NCBI GenBank assembly: GCA_022447665.1
Contig: JAKVAQ010000035.1
Location: 1-38,110, forward strand
DNA length: 38,110 nt
Origin: Crocinitomicaceae bacterium
GTDB lineage: Bacteria; Bacteroidota; Bacteroidia; Flavobacteriales_D; Crocinitomicaceae
Direction of reading: 5' to 3'
A program made the position numbers and the translations under genes. Below are positions 3,525-35,205 of this stretch, piece after piece; position 1 is the stretch's first letter, and each line of letters opens with the position of its first letter. The notes beneath the pieces were generated by a model. That model ran no database searches, was not told the DNA's origin, and saw only the letters and a list, made by a program, of their open reading frames with translations.

Positions 3525-3598
3525 TTCTAAGTGTTTTGGAAAATAACGAAGTTACGGATAAAATCGTTGGTAGCTACTGTCTTGGAATTAGAAGGAGT

Positions 3599-4486
3599 TT
3601 ACTCCACCCAAAGTGTATCTGAATAAATACTTGCTCCTCCAAAAATACCAAGACCGTTTTCTACATTAGAATATACTCTTACCGGTTCAGCAAAAGGATT
3701 CCCTTGCGTTTCAACGTATTTATTGTAGGAGATTTTGTATTGATATAAATCATAACTCAAGCTACGAATTGTGATAGCATGACAAATGAGTTCCTCATCA
3801 CTTTCCATATAAATATCACGCTCTCCTGTAAATGTGAAATTTTGACCGTTAAAAGTTTTGTCGCTAAAAAAGAATTCAAGGTCATAAGTTTTACCATCGA
3901 CATCTTCAAATCCATTGTCTACATAAGTCTCATTTGTAGAATAATAAGCATCTTCATAATACACGGTATCAAAGGTTTCAAAATCAAAATAGGCGTAATA
4001 AGATACACAAGTGACACTGTAATAATTATCTTCTCCTGCAGGGTCATTTACGTTAATGCTGAATTCGAGATTACCTTGACTATTCATTAAGGTGTCTATA
4101 CTTATTGGAACAATAGGTTGTGGCGCTGTAGACTGGGCAGAGATGGAAACATAACCAGATTTTTCGGCCCTTAATTCATAGGTAACACCTATTGCAGGCA
4201 TGGTAGAAGCCAGGTAATAATTCCCTTCTGTTGTTTCGGTTAATGTAGCAACTAAAGAACCGTCTCCAAGATGCAGAGTAACATTTGCCCCGGTTATAAT
4301 TGGGTGAATTGTATTTTGATCAATGATAGATTTACTGCGTTGAAGATTCACCCACAGGGTATCATTTGCCTCAAAAATTGAGTTAAAGACCAACTTAGGG
4401 TCTGACTGTTCCGCATTCAACGGAATTTCTTTTTCACATGAAATGAAGAAACTAGCTAATATAGTAAGTGAGAATATCTTTTTCAT
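3599..4486 (-). CDS. DUF4249 family lipoprotein
   Basis: A 295-residue lipoprotein. The signal peptide ends in the lipobox-like FISCEKE (lipidated Cys at about residue 17), followed by the DUF4249 pattern: early 'LVFNSIFEANDTLWVNLQRS', a carboxypeptidase-regulatory-like beta-sandwich ('ITGANVTLHLGDG...GNYY'), then a C-terminal domain with many Tyr, Asp and Glu. DUF4249 proteins in Bacteroidota are almost always encoded next to a TonB-dependent receptor, and the receptor here ends 3 bases upstream. It probably works as the surface-exposed partner of that receptor; the ligand is unknown. Low G in the coding strand matches the neighbours. Confidence 0.85.
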   Translation of the reverse strand: MKKIFSLTILASFFISCEKEIPLNAEQSDPKLVFNSIFEANDTLWVNLQRSKSIIDQNTIHPIITGANVTLHLGDGSLVATLTETTEGNYYLASTMPAIGVTYELRAEKSGYVSISAQSTAPQPIVPISIDTLMNSQGNLEFSINVNDPAGEDNYYSVTCVSYYAYFDFETFDTVYYEDAYYSTNETYVDNGFEDVDGKTYDLEFFFSDKTFNGQNFTFTGERDIYMESDEELICHAITIRSLSYDLYQYKISYNKYVETQGNPFAEPVRVYSNVENGLGIFGGASIYSDTLWVE

Positions 4487-4489
4487 GTC

Positions 4490-12073: not shown

Positions 12074-12478
12074 GGGGCCGACTTGGATTTGACTGCAATA
12101 GCAGTAGATGTACAAGCATGTCGAGCAATGCATTTATTCTCGTTAAAAATTAATGTATTCAAGAATAATTGACAACAATAATTCTTACGCGTTAGCTGCG
12201 TAATTCGGACTCAGTCTAATTACCTTAATTCCACCCGAAGTAAAGTAAGGGGAACTAACTGCCTACTGAAACCTTAACCAATGGTTTCGGATTTTAGGTA
12301 TCATGAATTGGTTTAGTACTGGTAGGGTTGTGATACTAGTGCGAATCTAATCGCAACTTAAGCCATAAGTAGGGTGTTTGTGCTCAGTTTATGGTCTAAC
12401 AAATAATCACAAAATAAACATGTAGAAACTACATAGACTCGTTGTTAGGACGAGGGTTCGATCCCCTCCGGTTCCACC
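12074..12478 (+). ncRNA. ssrA: Transfer-messenger RNA (tmRNA, SsrA)
   Basis: This RNA rescues ribosomes stalled on broken mRNA and tags the unfinished protein for proteolysis. The 5' end GGGGCCGACTTGGATTTGAC and the 3' end (12455-12478) with GTTCGATCCCC and GGTTCCACC form the tRNA-Ala-like acceptor and T arms. GGGGCCG pairs with CGGTTCC using two G-U pairs. The last A of CCA is not encoded and would be added later. The tag frame ends at TAA 12201-12203 and encodes a tail ending NNNSYALAA; the resume codon is uncertain (GAC at 12171 gives DNNNSYALAA). The gene has its own promoter and a terminator about 80 bases downstream. Confidence 0.95.
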
Positions 12479-12481
12479 TTC

Positions 12482-17016: not shown

Positions 17017-17888
17017 ATGATAGACCTAACCCAAATATTAAAGTACCTTCCTTCTGAAAGAATATCAGATTTAGAGTACATTGGGCAAACAATTTTAGAT
17101 ACTGAACGTGCGCAAATTATTTTACTTTTGGAAGTTATGCCCGTGGCGATTATAAATTAAAGCGAGGTGCAGTACAAGGAAAGAAAAGTGATCTTGGTAT
17201 TTTGATTGTTACAGAGGATAGCGCAAGTAAACGTAAACTTGTCGGTTAACTTCGGAATGCTTTTACAGATTCGGAAATTGTTGTACAAACATTAGTTGTC
17301 GCAATCAATACTGTTAATCAGGCATTGGAATAAAATCAATATTTCTATTCGGATATCAAGAAGGAAGGTATTGTGTTATATAATTCAGATCGTTTTGACT
17401 TTGCTTCTTTTAATGATTTCTCTCGAACCCGCAGAAGAGAGATTGCTGAAGCCGATTTTGAAAAATGGTATGGTGATGCAAAAAAAGCAATTAAAGGATT
17501 TAATTTTTACATATCAGAAAAAGACCTTGTTTGGGCCTCATTTATGCTTCAACAATCAGTAGAAATGTGTTACACTGCTATTGAAATGGTTTTTAGTCAT
17601 TATAACATGCATGAGCATAATTTATTAGCGTTACGTGATAGGAATGTAAAATATCATGTTCGTTTAAAGGGTATTTTTCATTATGATGATGAAGAAAAGA
17701 GGAAGTTGTTTGATCTGCTGAACTATGCTTATATCGGTGGTCGTTACAAAAATGAGAAAGAGTTTCCTGTAGATATTGATAAAATTGAATTTTGGAAGCA
17801 GGAGACAGAAATGTTTTTGAAATTAACGGAGGAGATTTGTTTGGAGAGGATTGAGGGGTTTCGGGGGATGGAGAAAAGTAAATTCTAG
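17017..17888 (+). pseudogene. Nucleotidyltransferase-HEPN protein, broken
   Basis: From ATG 17017 (MIDLTQILKYLPSERISDLE) the frame runs into the nucleotidyltransferase core and breaks at a T-run (17126-17129). With one T added it continues LLFGSYARGDYKLKRG, the classic GSYARG motif. Two in-frame TAA stops follow (17247-17249 and 17331-17333). The usual SDLDILI metal site reads SDLGILI, a lost aspartate. The 3' half, intact from about 17373, is a HEPN domain ('WASFMLQQSVEMCYTAIEMV', 'LLNYAYIGGRYKNEKEF'). Intact KNTase-HEPN proteins are linked to toxin-antitoxin or AMPylation functions. Here only a HEPN-only product of up to 171 residues could still be made, if a start is used. Confidence 0.8.
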
Positions 17889-21970: not shown

Positions 21971-21978
21971 TATATTTG
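21971..21978 (+). promoter_or_regulatory. Probable -7 element before the cobalamin riboswitch
   Basis: TATATTTG matches TAnnTTTG, about 14 bases before the first conserved riboswitch bases. No TTG at the correct -33 distance. It would let the lower B12 genes be transcribed separately from the four above. Confidence 0.45.
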
Positions 21979-21984
21979 GACAGC

Positions 21985-22170
21985 TTTTAGGTATCTATAA
22001 AATAGATTTAAAAGGGAACTTGGTGAAATTCCAAGACTGTTCCCGCAGCTGTGAGTTTCCGTTCGAATGGAGTAGAGCAGTAGAACAACAAAAAAGCCAC
22101 TGTTGATTTTATTCAATGGGAAGGTGTTGTCTACTATGGAAATGAGTCAGAAGACCTGCCTGTAAGCGGT
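21985..22170 (+). ncRNA. Cobalamin riboswitch
   Basis: The conserved core is clear: AAAAGGGAACTTGGTGAAAT then CCAAGACTG..CCCGCAGCTGTGA (22010-22054), AAGCCACTGT (22093-22102), GGGAAGGTG (22118-22126) and ATGAGTCAGAAGACCTGCCT (22142-22161). These are the adenosylcobalamin aptamer boxes in the right order and spacing. Binding of B12 should switch off the genes starting at 22331. I see no strong terminator between aptamer and gene, so control is more likely at translation, as is common in gram-negative bacteria; the SD-like AGGAG at 22317-22321 would be the target. Confidence 0.95.
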
Positions 22171-22203
22171 AAATGAGACTTTCGGGATAAAAGTTGATAA
22201 TTC

Positions 22204-22338
22204 ATGCGAGCCTTTGGTGGGCTGGATTGTCCGTTTTATGTTCCTAGTCTTATTAGAAATTATACAAGAATGAATAGCGTTATGTCGCCATTACTTAGTT
22301 CGGTATCTAAAAAGGTAGGAGAAATAAATTATGGGTAA
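22204..22338 (+). CDS. Possible 44-codon leader ORF overlapping the next gene start
   Basis: ATG 22204 opens a frame (starts MRAFGGLDCPFYVPSL, ends KKVGEINYG) that stops at TAA 22336-22338, eight bases inside the following gene. No homology is known to me. It could couple translation to the riboswitch, or it could be chance. Confidence 0.25.
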   Translation: MRAFGGLDCPFYVPSLIRNYTRMNSVMSPLLSSVSKKVGEINYG

Positions 22339-23137
22339 ATCGTTGGAAAAAGTAAAACACACATTTCTTTTTTGTGACGGAGGTTCATGCAGAAAGGCAG
22401 GCGCTGAACAGGTGTCTCGGGCTGCACGGCTTTACCTGAGAAATGAAGAGTTATGGGATGAAGTGCACACCATTAAGACGAGATGTAATGGGAGGTGTGA
22501 GGATGCTCCGACTTGTATTGTGGAGGATGGTCATTTTTGGTATAAAAATCTCAACCCAGAAAAAGTAGTCGAACTCATTAAAAGTCACTGCGAGAATGGA
22601 GAGCCGATAGAAGAATATCTGGTTTATGCCCGTGAATGGGAGCAAGTCCGATCGGATAATGAAAGGGGAACCTTTAAAATTAAACCTTTTGAATGGAAAG
22701 ATGACCCTTACCTTGGTCGCTGTCAAATGACAAAAGGATTAAGTTCGGATCAATATTTACATCCTTTATTTGATTATTTGTATCGAAATGCACCATCTAC
22801 AGTTTATGAAACGGCTCAAGGAGATCAATTGACCTTTTCGGAATTAACTGAAATCAGATTTGAAAAAGATATTGAGCTTGAACTGATCACAGAAAATAAA
22901 GAAATTCAATTGGTAATCGGTCCTGTTCGAAAAGATGAGCCTCATCTGGAGAAAGGAAAGATCCGAAATACCTATTATTTTTATCGGGAAAGTACGGGGC
23001 AAGTTGGTGTTCGTTTTTCAGATAAAAAAAATGAATTAATTGGGCACTTGTTCTTGGGCACATCCGAAGGCAATGCGTGGAGTTATTGCACGCGTGTTCA
23101 ATTACAGAACAATAAACTACAAGAAGTAAGTGTCTGA
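22331..23137 (+). CDS. (2Fe-2S) thioredoxin-like ferredoxin domain protein, first gene under the riboswitch
   Basis: A 268-residue protein. Residues about 10-95 form a thioredoxin-like 2Fe-2S ferredoxin: 'FLFCDGGSCRKAGAEQV' and 'TRCNGRCEDAPTCIVEDG' supply the four cluster cysteines. A 'NLNPEKVVELIKSHCENGEP' helix follows, as in the NuoE/CbiW group. Residues about 110-268 are a beta-rich domain I do not recognise ('CQMTKGLSSDQYLHPLFDYL', 'TYYFYRESTGQVGVRF'). An SD-like AGGAG is present at 22317, unusual for this phylum. The place directly below the riboswitch implies a B12 role, perhaps electron transfer for cobalt reduction or ring contraction. It overlaps the next gene by 8 bases. Confidence 0.8.
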   Translation: MGKSLEKVKHTFLFCDGGSCRKAGAEQVSRAARLYLRNEELWDEVHTIKTRCNGRCEDAPTCIVEDGHFWYKNLNPEKVVELIKSHCENGEPIEEYLVYAREWEQVRSDNERGTFKIKPFEWKDDPYLGRCQMTKGLSSDQYLHPLFDYLYRNAPSTVYETAQGDQLTFSELTEIRFEKDIELELITENKEIQLVIGPVRKDEPHLEKGKIRNTYYFYRESTGQVGVRFSDKKNELIGHLFLGTSEGNAWSYCTRVQLQNNKLQEVSV

Positions 23138-24674
23138 TAGAATAGGCATATTGGGACTTGGTTGGCTCGGAGAGCCACTGGCCGAAGCTCTTTTAGAAGA
23201 GGGATATCATGTGACGGGGTCTTCCACCTCACTCGAGAAAGTGCTGCGTTTATCGTCGAACCCCTATCATATCGTTCGACTGTCTGTCGAATCCGATCAT
23301 ATCGCAGGAGATGCGTCCACCTTTTTTCATGAAGTAGACACCGTAATCATCAATTTTCCGCCAAAACGAATCCCTGAAGTCGAGTCTGTATTTGTAGAAC
23401 AAATTAAGGAGCTCATTCCATTTTTGAAGGATGATATGAACGTGATTTTTATCAGTTCTACATCCGTTTATGGGAATACCAACGATTGGGTAACGGAAGA
23501 TCAGGAAGTCACTCCTGAAAAGGCTTCAGGAAAGGCTTTAGTAAAGGCAGAGTATTTATTGAAGCAACACTGTGGTGATCGTTTAACAATTTTAAGATTA
23601 GCAGGCTTAATAGGTCCGGATAGACATCCAGGGAAATTCTTAGCAAATAAAAGGGAGTTAAAAAATCCCAACGTTCCAGTAAATTTGATTCACTTGGTAG
23701 ATGTTATAGGTTTGATCAAGGAGATTCTGACTAGCAAGACCTTTGGAATCACTCTGAATGGTTGTGCGGATAAACATCCTGAACGTAAAGACTTTTACTC
23801 AAAGGCTGCAAAGCAACTGGGGCTAGCTTCTCCTGTTTTTAGTGGGGAAACTCAGAGGGCATTTAAACTCGTGTCCAATCAAAAGTCGAAAGATGTATTA
23901 AATTACAGCTATCAGTTTGATAACCCTGAAAAAATATTTACAGAAGCAAAGACTGGAGAAATTAAAATTGTTGGCGCAGGTCCAGGTGATATTGGTTTAT
24001 TAACTATTGCAGGATGTAAAGCGATTCAGAAGGCAGATGTTATACTGCATGACAATCTAGTCTCTAAAGATATTCTGGCTATAAATTCAAAAGCGGAATT
24101 AGTCTACGTCGGACGAAAATTTGGAGATCAATCCAATCAGATCGATCGTCAGTTACGCATTAATCAATTATTAGAAAACCATTACTTGGAAGGGAATAAA
24201 GTGGTTCGACTCAAATCAGGAGACCCATATGTCTATGGCAGAGCTGCAGAAGAAGCACGCTATCTGATGGAACGAAATGTGCCTTTTGAAGTAATCCCTG
24301 GTATTTCTGCGGCATTAGCTGCTGCTAATCAATGCAATATTCCAATTACTGAGCGACGTAAATCAAATGCAATATTAATCTGTACAGCACATACTGCAGA
24401 TTACTCATTTGAGCAGTTAAAAGGAATTGCAGGTTTGTTGAAGGCAGGAAATACATTAGCCCTTTATATGGGCTTAAAGAGTCTTGACAAAGTAATCCCC
24501 AAATTGATGGAAGTATGTCAAGATAGTGCTATACCTGTAAATGCCATCTCCAAGGTATCGCGTGATAATCAGGTATTATTGACGTCTACATTGGGAAATA
24601 TTCAGAAAGATTTGAAACAAACACCTCTGGAAATGCCGGTGGTGTTTTTAATCGGGGTAGACCCCATAAGTTGA
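23130..24674 (+). CDS. cobA: Fusion of an SDR-like (YeeZ-type) oxidoreductase and uroporphyrinogen-III C-methyltransferase
   Basis: A 514-residue two-domain protein. Residues 1-270: an NAD(P)-binding Rossmann domain of the extended SDR/YeeZ group (ILGLGWLGEPLAEALLEEG at 7-25, 'FISSTSVYGNTNDW' at 107-120, 'LRLAGLIGPDRHPGKF'), lacking a usual YxxxK pair. Residues 278-514: SUMT, which methylates uroporphyrinogen III at C2 and C7 to precorrin-2, with VGAGPGDIGLLT (281-292), RLKSGDPYVYGR (360-371) and VIPGISAALAAA (388-399). The frame is continuous through the joint. The start is GTG 23130, overlapping the previous gene by 8 bases. No separate Met8/CysG-type precorrin-2 dehydrogenase is visible, so the N-terminal domain might fill that step; this is inference. 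Confidence 0.9.
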   Translation: MSDRIGILGLGWLGEPLAEALLEEGYHVTGSSTSLEKVLRLSSNPYHIVRLSVESDHIAGDASTFFHEVDTVIINFPPKRIPEVESVFVEQIKELIPFLKDDMNVIFISSTSVYGNTNDWVTEDQEVTPEKASGKALVKAEYLLKQHCGDRLTILRLAGLIGPDRHPGKFLANKRELKNPNVPVNLIHLVDVIGLIKEILTSKTFGITLNGCADKHPERKDFYSKAAKQLGLASPVFSGETQRAFKLVSNQKSKDVLNYSYQFDNPEKIFTEAKTGEIKIVGAGPGDIGLLTIAGCKAIQKADVILHDNLVSKDILAINSKAELVYVGRKFGDQSNQIDRQLRINQLLENHYLEGNKVVRLKSGDPYVYGRAAEEARYLMERNVPFEVIPGISAALAAANQCNIPITERRKSNAILICTAHTADYSFEQLKGIAGLLKAGNTLALYMGLKSLDKVIPKLMEVCQDSAIPVNAISKVSRDNQVLLTSTLGNIQKDLKQTPLEMPVVFLIGVDPIS

Positions 24675-24680
24675 AATAGG

Positions 24681-25613
24681 ATGAAGGAGGGAATATTATT
24701 ATGTGGACACGGTTCACGACGAAAAACAGGAACAGACGCATTTAAACGAATGGTCGCTATTTTAAAAGACCGTTATTCCGACTACGAAGTGGATTATGGT
24801 TTTTTGGAATTTAGTCATCCTTTGTATGAGGCAGCTGTTGAAAGAATGTATCAAAAAGGTGTGCGGAAAATTTATGCACTCCCGGTAATTCTCTTCGCAG
24901 GTTCCCATGCAAAAAATGATATTCCCTATGAGATGAATACCATTCAATCCTATTACCCGGACTTGACCATTAATATGGGGCGTCATATTGGGGTAAGTAC
25001 TTTTTTGCTGGAATTAGCTAAAAAGCGGATTGAAGAAGAAGAAAAAAAATTACCCCCGATAGATCGAAAAGAATGTGCAGTGATGGTTGTTGGTCGTGGT
25101 ACGACGGACCCGGATGCGAATTCAGATGTGCATAAATTGTGCAGCATGCTATGGGACGGCATGGGAGTCGGTTTTGCTTCCGTGGGGTATAGTGGAACAG
25201 CTTATCCAAAAGTAAATGAAATGCTCCCTATGATAGATCAATTGCAATTTAAGCGGGTTTACGTGGTACCTTTTTTCTTTTTTACAGGAGTTTTATTAGA
25301 ACGAATTTACGGTTGGGTGGATGACTTTGATGCAACCTCTGATGTAGAGTACATCAAAACACAAGCTTTCGGGACAGATGAGTTAATGTTGAAAGCCTTT
25401 GACGAACGTCTGTATGAAGCTAAGAATGGATTAGGTAACATGAACTGTCAGCTCTGTAAATATCGGAAACAAATTATTGGTTTTGAAGAACAGAAAGGAC
25501 AAGAACAAGTAGGGCATCATCTCAATGTGAAAGGAATTCTATTTGAAGAAGATGAGAAGGTGGATGATAAGAAAGGAATTGGAGCGAAGATTAAGAATAT
25601 TTTGGGAATCTAA
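24681..25613 (+). CDS. cbiX: Sirohydrochlorin cobaltochelatase CbiX (long form)
   Basis: A 310-residue class II chelatase that inserts Co2+ into sirohydrochlorin, the early cobalt step of the anaerobic route. Two CbiX repeats: the first with 'GILLCGHGSRRKTG' (His10) and 'PVILFAGSHAKNDIPYE' (His76), the second at about 130-245 ('VMVVGRGTTDPDANSD', 'VYVVPFFFFTGVLLERI'). A C-terminal tail has Cys256 and Cys259 (NCQLCKYR), reminiscent of the Fe-S tail in long CbiX, and is rich in Lys and Glu. It lies between SUMT and CbiL, as expected for pathway order. The Shine-Dalgarno-like AGGATG context is weak. Confidence 0.93.
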   Translation: MKEGILLCGHGSRRKTGTDAFKRMVAILKDRYSDYEVDYGFLEFSHPLYEAAVERMYQKGVRKIYALPVILFAGSHAKNDIPYEMNTIQSYYPDLTINMGRHIGVSTFLLELAKKRIEEEEKKLPPIDRKECAVMVVGRGTTDPDANSDVHKLCSMLWDGMGVGFASVGYSGTAYPKVNEMLPMIDQLQFKRVYVVPFFFFTGVLLERIYGWVDDFDATSDVEYIKTQAFGTDELMLKAFDERLYEAKNGLGNMNCQLCKYRKQIIGFEEQKGQEQVGHHLNVKGILFEEDEKVDDKKGIGAKIKNILGI

Positions 25614-26327
25614 GTGAGTCAAAAAGGAAAAATAATTGGAGTTTCTCTCGGGCCGGGTGACCCTGAGCTAATTACACTAAAAGGGTATAATGTCTTGAAG
25701 GAGGTAGATCATATCTATTACCCAGGTTCGCGATTTGGAAACGGACAAGAGAAGAGTTATTCCTTTGGGATACTGGAGAAGCTTGGGATTGAACGTTCGA
25801 AAACGGAGGGCTTCTTTTTGGAGATGAACCTAGATCGTATCCAAGCACAAGCAATCTACAAACAAACGGCATTAAAAATTAAGGAAGAGGTCCTTTCTGG
25901 AAAAAACATAGCTATTGTTTGCGAGGGAGACTTGAGCACATATAGTTCATTCTCTTATTTGTTAGCTTATTTTGCAGAATTTGATCTTCCCGTATCACTA
26001 ATTCCAGGGATTACATCTTTTGCAAATGCAGCGGCTGAAATCCAAGATCCTTTGGTCTTACTCAATGAAACCATGAAGATCATTCCACGTGTAAAAACGG
26101 AAGAAGACTTAAATCAAGCGTTGATGGAGAGCGATACGATTGTCTTGATGAAAATAAAATCGGTCATGGATGTTATTTTTCCAATTTTGGAACAAGATAA
26201 TTATGTTTTTGTATACGCCGAGCGATTGGGGACACCAGACCAATTTTTGTGTACGGAAATCGACCAATTGAAAGAACGAATAATCCCTTATTTTTCACTG
26301 ATCATTATTAAAAACAAGAAGGCATGA
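25614..26327 (+). CDS. cbiL: Precorrin-2/cobalt-factor II C20-methyltransferase
   Basis: A 237-residue SAM-dependent tetrapyrrole methylase that methylates C20 of cobalt-factor II. 'GKIIGVSLGPGDPELITLKG' opens the family motif; 'ICEGDLSTYSSFSYL'-like 'CEGDLSTYSSFSYLLAYF' and 'SLIPGITSFANAAAEIQDPL' follow. The family has 230-250 residues. GTG start directly after the CbiX stop (no spacer). Its end overlaps the next gene by ATGA. CobI in Pseudomonas naming. Confidence 0.93.
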   Translation: MSQKGKIIGVSLGPGDPELITLKGYNVLKEVDHIYYPGSRFGNGQEKSYSFGILEKLGIERSKTEGFFLEMNLDRIQAQAIYKQTALKIKEEVLSGKNIAIVCEGDLSTYSSFSYLLAYFAEFDLPVSLIPGITSFANAAAEIQDPLVLLNETMKIIPRVKTEEDLNQALMESDTIVLMKIKSVMDVIFPILEQDNYVFVYAERLGTPDQFLCTEIDQLKERIIPYFSLIIIKNKKA

Positions 26328-27715
26328 AGATTACCGTAGCAGGTCTAGGGCCTGGAGATAAAGATTATATACTTCCGTTAGTTGTTAGTGCCCTACAAGA
26401 AGCAGATGTGGTTATAGGCTATGATTATTATTTCCAATTCTGTGAAGAGTATTTCAAGACTACTGTGAAGACGATTGCTATGCCACTTGGAAAAGAAGAA
26501 GGAAGAGCTGAGGTAGCAATAGAAGAGGCCATGAAAGGACAACAGGTGGTTGTGATTGGTTCAGGAGATGCTAGTATTTACTCTATGGCGGCGATTGTTT
26601 ATGAGATGGTCGCGAAACAAGAGAAGGACGATATTGAGTTAGAGACGTTACCAGGTGTCTCAGCATTTTTAGCGGCGGGGAGTAAATTGGGAGCCCCACT
26701 AGGACATGATTTTTGCTGTATTTCTTTGTCCGATTTAATGACCCCTTGGCAAGTCATTGAAAATCGAATTCGAGCTGCCGCTAAAGGAGATTTTGTAACG
26801 AGTCTTTACAATCCAAAGAGCAAAAAACGGTATTGGCAACTTGGTCGCTTGAAAAAGATCTTTTTAGAAGAGCGTCACCCGAATACCCCCGTTGCGATTA
26901 TCCGGCAGGTGACACGATCGGAAGAAAAAATTACCATTCAAACCTTGAAGGACTTTGACCCGGATTTGGTGGATATGTTCTCATTAGTGATGATTGGTAA
27001 TTCTCAAACTATTCGCTATAAAGACTATTTAATCACTCCAAGGGGCTATTTAAACAGAAAACCAGCGACAGGAAAAGAAATTCAAACCGAGAGTTTCAAA
27101 ATCGTCACAAAAGCAATCGCTCATCTTCCTTATCCAAAGGAAGATAAATGGGCGATTACACGTTTGATTCATACCACTGGTGTTGTAGATGATCATATGC
27201 ATTATCAGGCTTCAAAGGGAGCTATCAAAGAATGGCATGAATATTTGAAAAATGGAGGAATAATCGTGACAGATGTGACCATGGTAAAAGCTGGAATTAC
27301 AAAGGCGTTTACCGGTAAATACGGGAATCAGATCGTTTGTTGCTTGAATGATGAAGAGACACTCCGTTTGGCAGAAAAAGAGGTGTTAACACGATCGCAG
27401 GCGGGGATTAGAAGAGCAGCTTCTTTATACCCTAATGCTCTTTTTGTGGTTGGAAATGCACCTACAGCACTATTTGAACTGACCGATCAATTAAGGGAAC
27501 AAGAACAATTTAGTCCCATAGGTATTATCGGAGTTCCCGTCGGTTTTGTCAATGTATTGGAATCGAAGGAGCAATTGTCTCAGGTGACTGATACGCACTT
27601 TGTACTATTAAATGGGAACAGAGGTGGAAGTAATATTGCTGCAGCCATTGTTAATGCTGCATTTACGTTAGAAGAAATGGGGAATTATTTGACGAATGAT
27701 CACAATTCAAAATAA
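26324..27715 (+). CDS. cbiH-cbiC: Fusion of CbiH (C17-methyltransferase/ring contraction) and CbiC (C8X methylmutase)
   Basis: A 463-residue bifunctional enzyme. Residues 1-240 are CbiH/CobJ ('VAGLGPGDKDYILPLV', 'VVIGSGDASIYSMAA', 'ETLPGVSAFLAAGSKLGAPL', 'TSLYNPKSKKRYWQLG'), which contracts the corrin ring while methylating C17. Residues about 255-455 are CbiC/CobH ('RLIHTTGVVDDHMHY' with the catalytic His283, 'IVTDVTMVKAGI', 'LFVVGNAPTALFELTD', 'PIGIIGVPVGFVNVLESKEQ'), which moves the methyl from C11 to C12. Both active-site motifs look intact. The fused proteins act at separated steps, with CbiF, CbiG, CbiD, CbiJ and CbiET between. Confidence 0.93.
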   Translation: MKITVAGLGPGDKDYILPLVVSALQEADVVIGYDYYFQFCEEYFKTTVKTIAMPLGKEEGRAEVAIEEAMKGQQVVVIGSGDASIYSMAAIVYEMVAKQEKDDIELETLPGVSAFLAAGSKLGAPLGHDFCCISLSDLMTPWQVIENRIRAAAKGDFVTSLYNPKSKKRYWQLGRLKKIFLEERHPNTPVAIIRQVTRSEEKITIQTLKDFDPDLVDMFSLVMIGNSQTIRYKDYLITPRGYLNRKPATGKEIQTESFKIVTKAIAHLPYPKEDKWAITRLIHTTGVVDDHMHYQASKGAIKEWHEYLKNGGIIVTDVTMVKAGITKAFTGKYGNQIVCCLNDEETLRLAEKEVLTRSQAGIRRAASLYPNALFVVGNAPTALFELTDQLREQEQFSPIGIIGVPVGFVNVLESKEQLSQVTDTHFVLLNGNRGGSNIAAAIVNAAFTLEEMGNYLTNDHNSK

Positions 27716-27831: not shown

Positions 27832-28965
27832 GTGATGCAGATCATTGAAGGCAACTCTGTATTCTCGGGTGGAGACAGACATTTTGAAAGGGTTGAAAAG
27901 ATACTTCCTACGGGATTTAAATGGATTCCGATTAAAGGGAAAATGGAAACGGTTATAGCGGCGTATAAAAAAGCAGCAAGACAGGAGATTGTCATTTTCG
28001 CATCCGGAGATCCATTTTTCTTTGGCTTCGGAAATACATTGAAGCGCTTATTGCCAAAGGCTAAAATTTCTTGTTATCCTTCCTTTAATAGTCTTCAGCG
28101 ATTGGCCCATAAAAAACATTTGAATTATAGTGATTTACATCCTGTTTCTCTTCATGGACGCCCGTGGAAAAAATTAGATGAAGCCTTGATTTCTGGTAAA
28201 ACGCTGATTGGTATTTTAACCGATCAAGAACATTCACCCAAAAAGATTGCGGAGCGACTGATGAGATATGGGTATTCCGATTATGAAATGCTCATTGGAG
28301 AAGAACTAGATGGGGAAAATGAGAAGTTATCTCACTTCACCTTAGACAAGGCGATAAACTATGATGTTCAACGTTTGAATTGCTTGATTTTAAAATGTGT
28401 AAGCGAAAAACGAAAACCATTAAGCTTTTCAGATAATACCTACCGAACACTTGAAGGTAGACCGAATATGATGACAAAGCAAGCGATTCGACTCGTGACG
28501 ATAAATGCACTAAATCTTCATCAATCGAAGTGTTTTTGGGATATTGGAGCTTGTTCTGGTGCTGTAGCTATCGAAGCCAAAAGACATTACCCTTGGATAA
28601 CAATCCATGCCATTGAAAAACGAGAAGAGTGTTTGGATATCATTCGAGAGAATCAGCGATTGCATCATACACCTGGTATTGAAATAACCATTGGCGATTT
28701 TTTTGATTGTGACTTATCGAAATTTGATCAACCACAGTCCGTGTTTATTGGAGGTCATGGAGGACGACTCAAAGAACTCATTCCGAAAGTCGATAGTCAT
28801 TTGACAAATGGAGGTGTTATCGTCATGAATACGGTATTGGAATCCTCCTATTTAGATTTTATGGAGACGATCGAAGCATTGCGTTATTCGATTGTGAAAG
28901 AAGAAAAAATAAGTATTAATGAGCATAATACCATTCATGTATTATCAGCTCAAAAACCACTGTAA
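27832..28965 (+). CDS. cbiET: Fusion of CbiE and CbiT (C5/C15-methyltransferase and C12-decarboxylase)
   Basis: From the first canonical start (GTG 27832) the frame has 377 residues. CbiE covers about residues 1-190 ('NSVFSGGDRHFERV', 'EIVIFASGDPFFFGFGNTL'), CbiT about 208-377 ('PNMMTKQAIRLVTINAL', SAM site DIGACSGAVAIEA at 237-249, 'FIGGHGGRLKELI'). The true N-terminus must lie upstream: the same frame stays open to 27742 and reads ITLIGLSNASDQQW from 27781, the normal CbiE start, but holds no ATG, GTG or TTG. A rare ATT start at 27781 or a lost base is likely. The gene follows cbiH-cbiC across a G-poor spacer and precedes cbiG by 2 bases. CobL in Pseudomonas naming. Confidence 0.9.
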   Translation: MMQIIEGNSVFSGGDRHFERVEKILPTGFKWIPIKGKMETVIAAYKKAARQEIVIFASGDPFFFGFGNTLKRLLPKAKISCYPSFNSLQRLAHKKHLNYSDLHPVSLHGRPWKKLDEALISGKTLIGILTDQEHSPKKIAERLMRYGYSDYEMLIGEELDGENEKLSHFTLDKAINYDVQRLNCLILKCVSEKRKPLSFSDNTYRTLEGRPNMMTKQAIRLVTINALNLHQSKCFWDIGACSGAVAIEAKRHYPWITIHAIEKREECLDIIRENQRLHHTPGIEITIGDFFDCDLSKFDQPQSVFIGGHGGRLKELIPKVDSHLTNGGVIVMNTVLESSYLDFMETIEALRYSIVKEEKISINEHNTIHVLSAQKPL

Positions 28966-28967
28966 CA

Positions 28968-30818
28968 ATGAAAAAAGTAGCATTTATAGCGGTAACGAAT
29001 CAAGGCATTGAACTCGCCTTAAGTTTACAAAAAGAGTATCCGAAATCAGTGGTTGTTTCCACCAAAGCGTCAGAATATGAATTAGTTTCTGTTTTTTCAT
29101 CCATACCGGCTTATCTCGAACAAAATATCTCAAAACTAGATGGGATTTGCTTTGTTTCAGCACTTGGTATTTGTGTCAGAACAATGGCTCCTTTTTTGTC
29201 TGATAAATATTCGGATCCGGCTGTCATTTGTGTGGACGATCAGGGAAAGAATGTCCAGTCCGTACTCTCCGGTCATGTAGGAGGGGCAAACGATTTTGCG
29301 CGCAAGGTAGCAGCAGCTGTTGCAGGAAACGCTATTATTTCTACTTCATCAGATGTACAAGAAATTTGGTCCTTGGATACTTTGGCGAATCAGTTTGATT
29401 GGAAGGTGAGTAAAACGGAGGACTGGAACCAACTTATTAGCCGTTTTGTCAATCATCATAAAACAGCACTCTTATTAGACCTTAAGGATAAAGGCACGGC
29501 ATTCATGGAAAAATCTTTGCCAGATTTTGTGACCGTATACTACAGTGCTGAGGAGTTGGAGCCTGCAAGTTATGATTTAATTATTACGGTGACTTATCGT
29601 CAATATGATTTTGGAGTACCAACTGTAGCTTACTATCCAAAATCACTTTCTATTGGGTCAGGTTGTTCGAAAGAATTAGACCCAGAATTATTTGATCAAG
29701 AGCTAAAGCTGCAATTAGAGCGGAGAGATATTGCTTTAGAAGCGGTCAGTAAATTTGGATCCATTGATATAAAGGCGAATCAACAAGCCTATTTAGATTT
29801 TGGGAAAAAGAATGGTCTTCCATTTTTTACGTTTCAGGCTGATCGGATTAATCGGGTGAATGTTCCAAACCCTAGTGAAGTGGTGAAAGGAAAAATAGGA
29901 GTAGATGGGGTGTCTGAATCGACTGCAATGCTAATGGCGAATACGAACCGTGTGTTGATTGAGAAACAAAAAATAGCCTTGGATAATGGGCAAAAATTCA
30001 CATTCGCTGTCGCGATTGATCCAAAGTTTGAGCGGAAATCATCCATAGCCATTGTTGGAGCGGGGCCTGGGGACGAAGAATTGATCACTGTCAAAGGTAA
30101 GAACTTACTGGAGGAGGCGGATTTATGCTTGTATGCTGGAAGCTTAGTGCCAGAGGAAATGACCAGTTGGTGCAAAGAGGGAGCGGTTGTCAGAAATTCA
30201 GCGACTATGACCCTAGAAGAGCAGATAGAAATCATGCAGTCACATTATAAAAGAGGACATTCCATTGTTCGACTCCACAGCGGAGACCCTAGCTTGTATG
30301 GGGCTATTCAGGAGCAAATGTCCATCTTGGATGACTTAAATATGGATTATTATATTGTGCCAGGTATTTCTGCCTTCAGTGCTGCTGCAGCTATTCTTAA
30401 GTCTGAATTCACGATTCCAGAGGTGGTTCAATCAATCGTTTTGACAAGAGGAGAAGGGAAGACCCCAATGCCAAGTAAGGAAAGCATAGAGGCTTTCGCA
30501 AAGACGAATGCAACTATGTGTATTTTCTTAAGTGCCGGTATAGCAAAGAAGGTAGAAGGCGAACTCTTGAAGCATTTTGATCCAGATACTCCAGTGGCAG
30601 TCATGTATCGACTCACTTGGAAGGATGAGGAGGTGTATCAAGGAAAGCTCACAGAACTAGCCCATTTAGTTAAAACCAGCAAGAAAACAAGGACAGTACT
30701 CATGGTTGTTGGAAAAGCGATAGGCGCTAGAAAGAACCGATCACAACTTTATAGTCCAGATTGGAAACATATTTTTAGAACCAATAAGAAGTTCGTCGTA
30801 ACAGAAGATGCATCATGA
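28968..30818 (+). CDS. cbiG-cbiF: Fusion of CbiG (cobalt-precorrin-5A hydrolase) and CbiF (precorrin-4 C11-methyltransferase)
   Basis: A 616-residue protein. Residues 1-350 are CbiG: N-terminal domain with 'FVSALGICVRTMAPFL' and 'SVLSGHVGGANDFARKVAA', and C-terminal domain with 'SIGSGCSKELDPEL' and 'VVKGKIGVDGVSESTAM'. It opens the lactone and releases acetaldehyde, which marks the anaerobic route. Residues 359-600 are CbiF/CobM ('IAIVGAGPGDEELITVKGKN', 'LHSGDPSLYGAIQEQM', 'YIVPGISAFSAAAA', 'CIFLSAGIAKKV'). The two act in sequence (C11 methylation then lactone opening), so the fusion joins successive steps. It starts 2 bases after cbiET and ends before a 139-base A/C-rich spacer. Confidence 0.94.
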   Translation: MKKVAFIAVTNQGIELALSLQKEYPKSVVVSTKASEYELVSVFSSIPAYLEQNISKLDGICFVSALGICVRTMAPFLSDKYSDPAVICVDDQGKNVQSVLSGHVGGANDFARKVAAAVAGNAIISTSSDVQEIWSLDTLANQFDWKVSKTEDWNQLISRFVNHHKTALLLDLKDKGTAFMEKSLPDFVTVYYSAEELEPASYDLIITVTYRQYDFGVPTVAYYPKSLSIGSGCSKELDPELFDQELKLQLERRDIALEAVSKFGSIDIKANQQAYLDFGKKNGLPFFTFQADRINRVNVPNPSEVVKGKIGVDGVSESTAMLMANTNRVLIEKQKIALDNGQKFTFAVAIDPKFERKSSIAIVGAGPGDEELITVKGKNLLEEADLCLYAGSLVPEEMTSWCKEGAVVRNSATMTLEEQIEIMQSHYKRGHSIVRLHSGDPSLYGAIQEQMSILDDLNMDYYIVPGISAFSAAAAILKSEFTIPEVVQSIVLTRGEGKTPMPSKESIEAFAKTNATMCIFLSAGIAKKVEGELLKHFDPDTPVAVMYRLTWKDEEVYQGKLTELAHLVKTSKKTRTVLMVVGKAIGARKNRSQLYSPDWKHIFRTNKKFVVTEDAS

Positions 30819-30957: not shown

Positions 30958-31728
30958 ATGATTCTAGTTTTCGGAGGCACAACAGAAGGAAATCAAGTGA
31001 TTTCGACTCTTGAAGAGTTGGGGTTAGATTTCGTATACTCCACAAAATCAAAACTAGAGCTGACCTTGCCACCAAATGGGGTTTATCGTTCTGGAGCAAT
31101 GACACCAGAAGGATTGACTGATTTTATTGAGGAACATGAGATCGAAGTGATTATCAATGCCGCTCATCCTTTCGCAAGTGAATTACATCATACAATCGAT
31201 CAGGCAAGAGAAAAGAAACGAACAGAGGTCATTCGATTGGAACGAACATACCCTGAACACGTTCGTCATGATTCCATCCACTATGTTGAAACCTATGTTG
31301 AAGCCCAACAACTTTTGATGGATCGATTTTACGGAAAGCGAGGGTTAATGTTGACAGGGGTTCAATCAATTCCAGTTTTTAAAGCCTTTTGGTCAGAGAA
31401 TGAGTGTTACTTCCGAATTATCAATAGACGCACATCTCTTGAAATCGCTGAAGATGCTGGTTTCCCTGCAAAACAACTTGTTTTGGAGGATGCGAAAGCT
31501 CTTATTGGCGGAGAAGAAGAATTAATAGACCGACTCGGAATAGATTTTATGGTCACGAAGGAAAGTGGTAAAAGCGGAGCCTTGGATCACAAAATGGAAA
31601 TTGCGGTTAATACAGATATTCCGTTAGTGATCATCAAGCGGCCGCAGTTACCCAGTACATTTAAGATTGTTGAAAATATCACAGCCCTAAGGTCAATATT
31701 GAATCTTCTAAACGGTGTTAAGCAATGA
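30958..31728 (+). CDS. cbiJ: Cobalt-precorrin-6A reductase
   Basis: A 256-residue NAD(P)H-dependent reductase (CbiJ/CobK) that reduces the C18-C19 bond of cobalt-precorrin-6A. It opens with 'MILVFGGTTEGNQVISTLEE', the family's glycine-rich nucleotide motif. 'VIINAAHPFASELHHT', 'IRLERTY', 'VFKAFWSENECYFRIINR' and 'DFMVTKESGKSGALDHKMEI' are also characteristic. Length is normal. The start follows a long A/C-rich leader, and the stop overlaps cbiD by ATGA. Confidence 0.94.
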   Translation: MILVFGGTTEGNQVISTLEELGLDFVYSTKSKLELTLPPNGVYRSGAMTPEGLTDFIEEHEIEVIINAAHPFASELHHTIDQAREKKRTEVIRLERTYPEHVRHDSIHYVETYVEAQQLLMDRFYGKRGLMLTGVQSIPVFKAFWSENECYFRIINRRTSLEIAEDAGFPAKQLVLEDAKALIGGEEELIDRLGIDFMVTKESGKSGALDHKMEIAVNTDIPLVIIKRPQLPSTFKIVENITALRSILNLLNGVKQ

Positions 31729-32840
31729 GTTTGAGAAAAGTACCAGATGGACCATTGCGTGAAGGTTTCACAACGGGAACCTCAGCGACTGCAGCTGCAA
31801 AAGCCGGTCTTATGGCTATTATTCATCAAACTCCTTTTCAAGAAGTAGACGCGCATCTTCCGGTGGATAAAGTACTGACGATTCCTATTCATACGATTTC
31901 CTTTGGCGATAACTGGGCGAAATGTAGCGTTATTAAAGATGCGGGAGATGACCCTGATGTGACCAATGGAGCAGAAATAGGGTGTCATTTATTGCTTACA
32001 ACTACGAAAGGAGTTTCCTTCAAAGCAGGTGAAGGAGTTGGAACAGTGACATTAGAAGGTTTGGAATTAGCCGTTGGAGAGCCGGCAATTAATCCCGTTC
32101 CCCGAAAAATGATCAGAAGTGCGATTGAAAAATTATTACACGATTATGATCTGGAATGTGGGGTTCAGGTGACTGTCTTCGTTGAGGATGGAGAGAAACT
32201 CGCCAAGAGAACATTAAACGAACGTGTTGGAATTATGAATGGGCTGTCTATACTTGGAACGACGGGAATTGTCAAACCGTATTCAGCGGCTTCTTATATT
32301 GCCAGTATTGAACAAGGGATTGACGTGGCAGTGGCTAATGACATAACGGAATTAGTCATTAATTCTGGAGCACGAAGTGAAAAGTTTTTAAAAGCCCTTT
32401 TCCCTGAAGCAAAGGAGCAGGCCTACATTCATTATGGTAACTGGATAGGTGAAACGTTAAAGAAGATACAGAAGAGTCCCATTCATAAAGTCAGTATGGG
32501 AATAATGTTGGGGAAAGCTGCTAAGTTGGCCTATGGTACTGTGGATACACACAGTTGCGTTTCAGGGTGGAATAAGTCCTTTATCAAAGAGCTTGCAATA
32601 GAATCAGGGATGGAAGATGTGGATCGAATTGATGATATTCAAATGGCAGGAAGACTTCCTGAATTATTTCCATTCGAAGAGGAATCGCCTTTTTATCAAG
32701 CCTTATTGGATTGCTGTTATACACACACGAAGTCATTACTTAAAGACGAAACAAGACTAGAAATTTATCTAATTCATAAGACAGGAAAAAATATTAAATA
32801 CAAATACAAACACCAACAACCAACAACCAACAACCAATAA
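31725..32840 (+). CDS. cbiD: Cobalt-precorrin-5B C1-methyltransferase CbiD
   Basis: A 371-residue methyltransferase that adds the C1 methyl group in the anaerobic pathway. Signature parts: 'LREGFTTGTSATAAAKA', 'VIKDAGDDPDVTNGAEIG', 'GEGVGTVTLEGLELAVGEPA', 'AINPVPRKMI'-like 'NPVPRKMIRSAIEKL', 'VGIMNGLSILGTTGIVKPYS'. The enzyme ends around 'RLEIYLIHKTGK'; the last 15 or so residues ('IKYKYKHQQPTTNNQ') are encoded by the A/C-rich repeat that follows, so the tail is likely repeat read-through with no function. Overlaps cbiJ by 4 bases. Confidence 0.95.
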   Translation: MSLRKVPDGPLREGFTTGTSATAAAKAGLMAIIHQTPFQEVDAHLPVDKVLTIPIHTISFGDNWAKCSVIKDAGDDPDVTNGAEIGCHLLLTTTKGVSFKAGEGVGTVTLEGLELAVGEPAINPVPRKMIRSAIEKLLHDYDLECGVQVTVFVEDGEKLAKRTLNERVGIMNGLSILGTTGIVKPYSAASYIASIEQGIDVAVANDITELVINSGARSEKFLKALFPEAKEQAYIHYGNWIGETLKKIQKSPIHKVSMGIMLGKAAKLAYGTVDTHSCVSGWNKSFIKELAIESGMEDVDRIDDIQMAGRLPELFPFEEESPFYQALLDCCYTHTKSLLKDETRLEIYLIHKTGKNIKYKYKHQQPTTNNQ

Positions 32841-33579: not shown

Positions 33580-35205
33580 ATGAAAACACCCATTTTTCCA
33601 TTTACCGCAATTGTTGGACAACAATCATTCAAAAGAGCGCTGCTTTTGAATCTTGTCGACCCTACGATTGGAGGGGTGCTTGCGATCGGTGATAAAGGAA
33701 CTGGAAAAACAACACTGATCCGTTCGCTCGCCCATTTAATGAATCAAAATAGTGATGTTCCATTTGTGAATTTGCCGATCGGATCGACAGAAGATCGCCT
33801 GATTGGAAACATAAACTTAGAGACCTTAATCAACGAGAAAAAAGAAGTTGTAAAACGAGGGCTTTTGAATCAGGCAAATGGAGGAATACTCTATGTAGAT
33901 GAGGTGAATTTATTACAAGCGCATCTAATGGATATTCTATTGGATGCAAGTGCGTCCGGACAATATTATCTTGAAAGAGAGGGAGTTTCACACTTGTTTC
34001 AAAGTCGTTTTTGTTTGGTTGGTTCTATGAATCCAGAAGAGGGGGAGTTACGTCCACAATTAAAAGATCGTTTTGGACTCGGAGTAGAGATAAGAACGAC
34101 GCAAAGTATAGAAGAACGTGCAGCTATTATAAAGGCAAGATTAGCCTATGATGCAGATCCAGAAAAATTTCAAAATGATTATCAAGAGCAGGAACAACAT
34201 TTACGAACGGATATAATTGATGCTAAAAAGACAATTTCAAGGATCAAAACGTCGAATGACGTCATTGAATATTGTGCTAACCTTGCATCAAAGAGCGGTG
34301 TAGAAGGCTTAAGGGCTGACATACTTTTAGTAAAGGCTTCTAGAGCGTTTGCAGCATTGGAAAAGAGGGAAATCGTGTCAATCAAGGATGTAGATGAGGT
34401 GGCAGACCTTGTATTATTTCACAGAAGAAACATACATACACAGCTTCCAAATGACCAGCAGCAAAACCAAACAAATCAAGGTCAAAATGAAGGTCATTTA
34501 GAAGAGGAGGAGAATACACCAGAAGATAGAAGAGAGATTAAATTTCCCTTGAATGATTTTAAGCGAAGTAAATCAATGCAATCAAGAGAGGGGCAGATGA
34601 ATCTTAAAAATCAACCCAAAGGAGAAGAATCCTTGAATGTCCGCAAGACGGTGGGTCAATACATGGCAACAGATAAATTTCAACTGCATCATCAAAGAAA
34701 GAAAAAGGAACAGAGAGAACATTATGTCTTTTTACTGGATGCTAGTGGATCAATGTTGTCCAATCAAATAAACGCCTATGCAAAAGGCGCGATCGACATA
34801 ATAGCAAAGACTAATAAAAGTCAAAAATCTACATACTCAGTGGTGACATTGGTAGAAGGAGATGCGTGTATAACATTGAATAATAATCCCATACTAGAGG
34901 AGTTAGAACGAGCTCTGAAAAAAATAGAAACAGGAGGTAAAACGAACTTGAAAGCAGGATTGAAAAAAGTGAAGCAACTCACCAACGACCCAGAATATGC
35001 TCATCATTTGTACGTAGTGACTGATGGGAAATTTTCGGAGAGAGGCTCAATAGAAGAATATGTTCTAGCTTTTAATACATTATGCAAAGGACTAGACTCC
35101 GCTCGTGTTGTTGATGCTGAGCAAGGCGTTGTGAAATTAGGAATGGCCAGAGCTTTTGCAGAAAAGATTCAAGCGAATTATGAACCCTTAAAGATAGATC
35201 TGTGA
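33580..35205 (+). CDS. ChlI-ChlD-like AAA+/VWA chelatase motor (putative cobaltochelatase subunit)
   Basis: A 541-residue fusion of the two motor parts of a class I chelatase. Residues 1-280 are the ChlI-like AAA+ ATPase: Walker A GDKGTGKTT (37-45), Walker B 'GGILYVDEVNLL' (101-112), sensor 'RFCLVGSMNPEEGELRPQLK' and Arg-finger region 'DRFGLGVEI'. Residues 281-370 are an acidic, Gln-rich linker. Residues 380-541 are a VWA domain with MIDAS DASGS (387-391). In B12 synthesis such a subunit works with the large CobN (ChlH-like) protein, which is not in this window, although CobW follows and CobN often sits near it. With CbiX also present the role is uncertain. Confidence 0.88.
   Translation: MKTPIFPFTAIVGQQSFKRALLLNLVDPTIGGVLAIGDKGTGKTTLIRSLAHLMNQNSDVPFVNLPIGSTEDRLIGNINLETLINEKKEVVKRGLLNQANGGILYVDEVNLLQAHLMDILLDASASGQYYLEREGVSHLFQSRFCLVGSMNPEEGELRPQLKDRFGLGVEIRTTQSIEERAAIIKARLAYDADPEKFQNDYQEQEQHLRTDIIDAKKTISRIKTSNDVIEYCANLASKSGVEGLRADILLVKASRAFAALEKREIVSIKDVDEVADLVLFHRRNIHTQLPNDQQQNQTNQGQNEGHLEEEENTPEDRREIKFPLNDFKRSKSMQSREGQMNLKNQPKGEESLNVRKTVGQYMATDKFQLHHQRKKKEQREHYVFLLDASGSMLSNQINAYAKGAIDIIAKTNKSQKSTYSVVTLVEGDACITLNNNPILEELERALKKIETGGKTNLKAGLKKVKQLTNDPEYAHHLYVVTDGKFSERGSIEEYVLAFNTLCKGLDSARVVDAEQGVVKLGMARAFAEKIQANYEPLKIDL

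Follow-up and report, generated by a model that had tools for sequence, protein, structure and literature searches.

A YeeZ-type SDR fused to SUMT ahead of cbiX in a Crocinitomicaceae B12 operon: a possible precorrin-2 dehydrogenase unrelated to Met8

The fused gene and its two domains

We analyzed a 38,110-nucleotide stretch of DNA (hereafter the window; contig JAKVAQ010000035.1 of assembly GCA_022447665.1) from a Crocinitomicaceae bacterium of the phylum Bacteroidota, which carries an operon for cobalamin (vitamin B12) synthesis (Table 1). The operon runs from a cobalamin riboswitch through a 2Fe-2S protein gene, a gene that joins a short-chain dehydrogenase/reductase (SDR) to a uroporphyrinogen-III C-methyltransferase (SUMT), cbiX, cbiL, cbiH-C, a cbiE/T-like gene, cbiG-F, and cbiJ to cbiD. 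The original prediction, made from the window alone, described the joined gene as an oxidoreductase-SUMT fusion directly ahead of cbiX, labeled its first half YeeZ-like, and proposed that this half might stand in for a missing precorrin-2 dehydrogenase. We found the fusion to be real, with an SDR domain at residues 4-270 and an SUMT domain above its family cut-off at residues 276-509, and its place directly before cbiX was borne out. The start of the gene overlaps the 3' end of the preceding 2Fe-2S gene by 8 bases. The same GTG start and the same overlap recur in a sister locus (L062), where the fusion is likewise 514 amino acids (aa) long; this locus belongs to the nearest named relative, a Crocinitomicaceae metagenome-assembled genome (MAG) whose CbiX is 95% identical to that of the window.

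The C-terminal half scores 224.5 bits against TIGR01469, for which the curated cut-off is 185, and thus belongs to SUMT (CobA/SirA/NirE), differing from these enzymes by its fusion to an SDR; the PF00590 match covers residues 280-491. The N-terminal half aligns over 270 residues with Escherichia coli K-12 YeeZ at 35% identity (E 3e-46; profile probability 100%), and this full-length similarity places it among the YeeZ-type atypical SDRs, so that the label given to it was correct. An AlphaFold2 model of the whole fusion reached a predicted local distance difference test score (pLDDT) of 89 and a predicted template modeling score (pTM) of 0.65, with a mean pLDDT of 94 for the SDR domain. This domain has an extended-SDR fold with the nucleotide-binding motif G9-x-G11-x-x-G14, in which G9, G11, and G14 are conserved, and all 50 structures listed for it were SDR-type (Z 24.5-27.8). 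The closest solved structures by sequence and fold, 3gpi and 3ius (Z 26.9 and 27.8; 22-23% identity), are titled a putative epimerase/dehydratase and a protein of unknown function, and we found no tie to B12 for either in this analysis. In an alignment with 6zl6, the columns of the canonical SDR Tyr and Lys hold S133 and L137; the catalytic Tyr-x-x-x-Lys of classical and extended SDRs is absent here, and neither Tyr133 nor Lys137 occurs among the residues listed for the 58 SDRs that we compared. Pfam and NCBIfam scans of the SDR domain returned no flavin or Fe-S domain.

No sequence signature of Met8 was found in the SDR domain. PF13241 gave no match to it at E <= 1 and TIGR01470 none at E <= 0.1 (HMMER filters drop most matches above 0.1), an hhalign comparison with the Met8 of the same genome gave a probability of 0.1%, and a Pfam scan of the fusion at E <= 0.001 did not return PF14824, the sirohaem synthase central domain. 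No Met8-like structure is among the 50 listed for the domain, which is by itself uninformative. The order of the two halves is nevertheless that of CysG from Salmonella and E. coli, which likewise places an N-terminal Rossmann nucleotide-binding module before a C-terminal SUMT, and CysG gave the best Foldseek matches to the whole fusion model, though with root-mean-square deviations of 15-19. The two differ in that the N-terminal module of CysG is a Met8 domain and that of the fusion is not, and in that the fusion sits in a B12 operon before CbiX.

Table 1. Features of the B12 operon in the window.
Feature	Coordinates	Strand	Details
Cobalamin riboswitch heading the operon	21972..22177	+	RF00174, 104 bits, E 3.6e-25
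2Fe-2S thioredoxin-like ferredoxin protein	22331..23137	+	268 aa; PF01257 28.9 bits, residues 8-84 only
SDR-SUMT fusion gene	23130..24674	+	GTG start, 514 aa
YeeZ-type atypical SDR domain	23139..23939	+	residues 4-270; PF03807, PF03446 (NAD(P)-binding Rossmann)
SUMT domain (uroporphyrinogen-III C-methyltransferase)	23955..24656	+	residues 276-509
cbiX, sirohydrochlorin cobaltochelatase, long form	24681..25613	+	PF01903 142 bits
cbiL	25614..26327	+	TIGR01467 188 bits, cut-off 163
cbiH-cbiC fusion	26324..27715	+	TIGR01466, PF02570
cbiE-cbiT-like methyltransferase gene	27832..28965	+	PF00590 29 bits; position kept in relatives; E/T name is ours
cbiG-cbiF fusion	28968..30818	+	PF11760, PF11761, PF01890, PF00590
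cbiJ/cobK, precorrin-6x reductase	30958..31728	+	PF02571 173 bits
cbiD	31725..32840	+	PF01888 290 bits

Recurrence of the SDR at the SUMT-CbiX joint

To place the fusion among its relatives, we compared 13 B12 operons of one type from 12 genomes, a grouping made post hoc after viewing the loci. In 12 of the 13, the SDR is located at the joint between SUMT and CbiX, so the proposal that the fused domain belongs to this interval was upheld. Five operons carry it fused to SUMT, namely the window (genome G000), L199 and L198 (both G680), L042 (G151), and L063 (G681), while in four it adjoins a separate SUMT (L048 in G373, L065 in G683, L120 in G695, and L200 in G372). Two others have the SDR directly 5' of CbiX (L064 in G682 and L124 in G696), and one has the order SDR-BluB-SUMT-CbiX, with BluB named by eye (L057 in G292). 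The remaining operon (L202 in G439) has neither SDR nor SUMT, and its genome encodes both Met8 and NIR_SIR. A further SDR-SUMT pair lies in G694, apart from the B12 locus of that genome (L114). We regard the fusion as solid, and likewise its repeated occurrence at the joint of SUMT and CbiX. By comparison, SUMT-bearing B12 loci of other types occur without an SDR (L066 of Marinifilum, which has CbiX, and L067, L071, L081 (Chlorobi), and L206 of G391), and Met8 is present in each of the four of these genomes that were checked for it (those of L066, L067, L081, and L206). In 8 of the 12 SDR-bearing operons, the 2Fe-2S gene precedes the SDR by no more than 100 bases, and its product is a possible electron carrier.

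The SDR is far more widespread than the fusion. Within the window's own family, it is found in 82 of 100 genomes and is fused in G000 only; within the order, it is found in 120 of 249 genomes, with G151 providing a second fusion. In our sample of the phylum, the SDR (E <= 0.001) is present in 255 of 395 genomes and CbiC in 23. A CbiHC alignment scan of genome contigs gave at least 80 loci, of which the best-scoring ones were used. Six of the best 80 matched the SDR profile (Crocinitomicaceae, Fulvivirga, two Chitinophaga, Hymenobacter, and Flammeovirga) and two matched the Met8 profile; among these best 80, none titled Chlorobi or wide-sense Bacteroidales (including Marinifilum, Marinilabilia, and Salinivirgaceae) has the SDR in the stretch examined. 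The survey of the domain pair across Bacteroidota that had been called for therefore shows that the arrangement recurs, partly in genomes without a Met8 match. The idea that the fusion is exclusive to the window's organism is ruled out by its occurrence in G680 (at two loci), G151, and G681. We also considered whether long SDR frames of 479-570 aa (family f9) are further SUMT fusions and rejected this for the five of the six loci that we examined (L043-L047), none of which has a SUMT match.

Two observations concern the makeup of individual relatives. G680, a Crocinitomicaceae MAG, has two differing B12 operons (L198 and L199), each with an SDR-SUMT fusion, which may reflect either a mixed bin or a true duplication. 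In another genus of the order (L043:8235-9911), a distant SDR lies in a 558-aa frame whose second half looks hydrolase-like by eye.

We built a tree of 58 SDRs (from 72 profile matches after removal of duplicate loci), including 13 operon copies. A tree in which these 13 copies were constrained to form one specialized clade was rejected (approximately unbiased (AU) test, p 0.002). A single origin of the five fusions is compatible with the tree (AU test, p 0.46).

Met8, siroheme, and the SUMT-positive genomes

The window lacks Met8 and CysG-N, as had been predicted. The four PF13241 matches of the genome lie on contigs C9, C16, C17, and C32, the window being C29, and the match on C9 (C9:20852-21187) is a Met8 of 195 aa (PF13241 86-87 bits, PF14824 36 bits, TIGR01470 113 bits). 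It is part of a tight one-strand row of four genes consisting of a 698-aa frame with two matches to NIR_SIR (sulfite reductase), a second SUMT (SUMT2), Met8, and a cysK-like gene named by eye. The claim that a precorrin-2 dehydrogenase gene is missing thus stands for the window and fails for the genome, where this Met8 excludes a genome-wide lack; the accompanying caution that a Met8 might sit elsewhere with sulfite reductase genes was well founded. By its place, we assign this Met8 to the siroheme side. The row of SUMT2 and Met8 beside NIR_SIR on C9 suggests that siroheme and B12 are each served by a separate SUMT in this organism. According to the original prediction, a Met8 conserved both here and in other carriers of the fusion would refute it, which applies to half of the four fusion-bearing genomes: G000 and G681 have a Met8, and G151 (87% complete) and G680 (a MAG) have no match.

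We next scored 33 genomes, namely G597 and 32 that have B12 ring genes, for SDR, SUMT, NIR_SIR, and Met8, the last called by TIGR01470 in 10 cases and by PF13241 at >=46 bits in 10; weak PF13241 matches (21-31 bits, in frames of 263-826 aa) in genomes lacking Met8 were left out of the count. SUMT is above its cut-off in 25 of the 33, and 20 of these 25 have Met8. The five that do not are G151, G292, and G372 (both of the latter 99% complete), G680, and G695, and all five have an SDR in the B12 operon adjoining SUMT, with one gene between the two in G292. NIR_SIR is present in none of these five and in 17 of the 20 Met8-positive SUMT genomes, the exceptions being G323, G690, and G691 (Fisher's exact test, p 0.001, ignoring kinship). 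The 11 genomes with an SDR-bearing operon fall into six that have both Met8 and NIR_SIR and five that have neither. The existence of five SUMT genomes without Met8 makes precorrin-2 oxidation the first guess for the function of the operon SDR.

Eight genomes with B12 ring genes lack both SDR and Met8 and could be taken as counter-examples. We set them aside because SUMT is also below its cut-off in all eight (G515, G523, G632, G686, G687, G689, G692, and G693): G523 scores 160 bits, and the other seven have no match at E <= 1e-40. These genomes, five of them named wide-sense Bacteroidales and three from the window's class, also show no NIR_SIR, and their B12 ring genes are fitting for salvage of a ready-made tetrapyrrole. 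Their sub-threshold SUMT agrees with the lack of the steps to precorrin-2 in Porphyromonas gingivalis, as a passage of PMC6461909 describes it. The Porphyromonas genome in our set (G690) does have SUMT, and one of its frames, 702 aa long, matches Met8 at 46 bits.

Possible functions of the fused SDR

We tentatively propose, from domain order and gene context, that the fusion is a CysG-like precorrin-2 dehydrogenase that uses a YeeZ-type SDR instead of the non-homologous Met8, a reading to which we give appreciable weight while rating it short of probable. Its SUMT half would convert uroporphyrinogen III to precorrin-2, and its SDR half would bind a nicotinamide nucleotide and abstract a hydride from precorrin-2, which is unstable, yielding sirohydrochlorin, into which CbiX, encoded by the next gene, would insert cobalt; the separate SUMT2-Met8 pair would supply siroheme for sulfite reductase. 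What we infer is the substrate, the reaction direction, and any channeling between the halves. Both the proposed reaction and its place in the pathway are those of Met8p, SirC, and CysG-N, which belong to another family: the SDR lacks a Met8 signature, and its strand 2 does not end in an acidic residue. With S133 and L137 in the Tyr and Lys columns, the usual carbonyl chemistry of SDRs is unlikely, and since a base-free reaction relying on NAD+ is discussed for SirC in a passage of PMC7018833, the absence of these residues is no bar to precorrin-2 dehydrogenation. The same paper, in part of its text, describes SUMT-half residues of CysG that affect its other activities, which is one way in which joining the two halves could be important. 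A passage of PMC7242693 describes precorrin-2 as highly unstable, and a SUMT-precorrin-2 oxidase is listed among fusions around unstable intermediates in a passage of PMC4921024. Literature searches with specific phrases, pairing precorrin-2 dehydrogenase with short-chain dehydrogenase, combining SUMT with fused, epimerase, and cobalamin, or linking cobalamin biosynthesis with Crocinitomicaceae, returned nothing.

If the proposal is right, the fusion accounts for precorrin-2 oxidation in those B12 makers that have no Met8 match, assigns a substrate to the uncharacterized YeeZ family, and provides a candidate for organisms such as Paracoccus, for which a passage of PMC4063343 reports no obvious precorrin-2 dehydrogenase. 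A bolder extension would make the YeeZ-type SDRs as a whole, E. coli YeeZ included, a second, non-homologous class of precorrin-2 oxidizing enzymes, fused to SUMT and dedicated to cobalt insertion in Bacteroidota B12 makers, and present in E. coli as a hidden activity that lets SUMT and a chelatase replace CysG; we consider this extension unlikely. E. coli YeeZ (b2016) has the family-conserved residues in common with the SDR domain, and it differs in being a solitary gene, between yeeY and yoeB, that is annotated only as a putative epimerase. The YeeZ question is addressable in E. coli through yeeZ.

A number of observations weigh against a precorrin-2 dehydrogenase. The window's own genome carries an ordinary Met8 and is one of 6 that do so among the 11 genomes with an SDR-bearing operon. 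Operon and solitary SDRs are intermixed in the tree, and no residue distinguishes them; the conserved set is common to both and to E. coli YeeZ. Among the phylum genomes, 209 have the SDR at E <= 1e-20, and SUMT (E <= 1e-40) is present in 142 of these and not in 67, so precorrin-2 cannot be the substrate of every family member; of the 186 genomes without the SDR at that threshold, 43 have SUMT. SDR copies also adjoin cobU (L056), cobB (L181, L182, and L188), or an ABC importer. G597, a congener of G373, has no CbiC match and its SDR stands alone; comparing its locus (L049:7884-8820) with L048, we found that the final part of the 2Fe-2S gene survives as a 93-base remnant just 5' of the SDR (80% identical), which indicates that the B12 operon was lost around the SDR, and a 37-base match to the start of cobQ also lies upstream. 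The SDR was kept after this loss, with a nonsynonymous to synonymous substitution ratio (dN/dS) of 0.09 relative to G373 (dN 0.042, dS 0.461). Positions 30-32 are free of Asp and Glu in all 58 SDRs, and the absence of an acidic residue at these Rossmann positions suggests NADP(H) use. Judged by its residues, the nucleotide pocket looks NADP-like, which does not fit the NAD+ used by SirC and CysG according to passages of PMC7242693 and PMC7018833. In addition, CbiX rescued an E. coli cysG strain carrying an SUMT plasmid alone, as reported in part of PMC4063343; together with the lack of an obvious candidate in P. denitrificans noted there, this suggests that a dedicated enzyme may be unneeded in air. 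Across the family, the facts pull toward a broader redox role.

That pull is expressed by a possible, somewhat doubtful alternative in which YeeZ-type SDRs are general redox helpers of tetrapyrrole metabolism, for example in the NADPH-dependent repair of over-oxidized porphyrinogens or precorrins; the fused copy would keep the substrate or product of SUMT usable, and precorrin-2 would be oxidized by Met8 or by air. Such a role accounts for solitary SDRs in genomes without SUMT and for the survival of the SDR in G597, and it suits the NADP-like pocket and the residues shared by operon and solitary copies. It also fits the positive association of SDR with SUMT (142/209 vs. 43/186), the absence of the SDR from the eight B12 genomes below the SUMT cut-off, and SDR neighbors that include COX15 and an FecCD-type importer. 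The association with SUMT is, however, confounded by kinship, and G690 and G691 have SUMT and Met8 with no SDR. An alternative that we consider improbable is that the SDR takes part in a different redox reaction of cobalamin synthesis, for example by supplying electrons for cobalt reduction or for the step from cobalt-factor III to cobalt-precorrin-4, possibly together with the 2Fe-2S protein: the 2Fe-2S gene is near the SDR in most operons, copies lie beside cobU and cobB, and the role of precorrin-6x reductase is already filled by CbiJ. Against this, the SDR has no flavin or Fe-S domain in the scans above, its fusion partner is SUMT rather than CbiH or a late enzyme, and the five Met8-less genomes would be left with no known enzyme for precorrin-2 oxidation.

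The wide occurrence of solitary copies raises the further, similarly remote prospect that the SDR has a housekeeping role outside tetrapyrrole metabolism, that it came to lie next to B12 genes by repeated capture, and that the fusion is incidental. Most relatives are indeed solitary, as in the window's own family, and a search of 19 SDR neighborhoods at E <= 1e-5 found none of the window's other B12 genes. In the stretches scanned, mostly 1.5-kb flanks, no cobalamin riboswitch lies near any of 37 SDR genes that are solitary or cob-linked, although only one of the four operon loci in the same scan (L173) has one within such a flank. An incidental capture is hard to reconcile with the joint position shared by 12 of 13 operons, whose SDRs come from separate places in the tree. 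Even if its substrate is not precorrin-2, the recurrent linkage with SUMT, CbiX, CobU, and CobB ties the YeeZ-type SDRs to tetrapyrrole metabolism.

Further observations concern genes near the SDR and elsewhere in the window. At L050:5077-8838, a solitary SDR directly follows genes for a periplasmic-binding protein, an FecCD permease, and an ABC ATPase (Pfam FecCD and ABC_tran), and L058 and L059 share this importer linkage by clustering with L050; the importer is possibly one for B12 or haem. A ChlI/ChlD-like AAA-VWA gene lies at 33580-35205 of the window, in the same cluster as the early chelatase CbiX, and L048 has a 1248-aa CobN-like gene, named by eye (region 1642-5388), so components of both the early and the late cobalt insertion system seem to be present together. 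A HEPN-domain gene at 17373-17888 (PF05168, 32 bits) lies just ahead of cobQ where the B12 cluster begins, and a tmRNA gene (144 bits) is found at 12074-12479.

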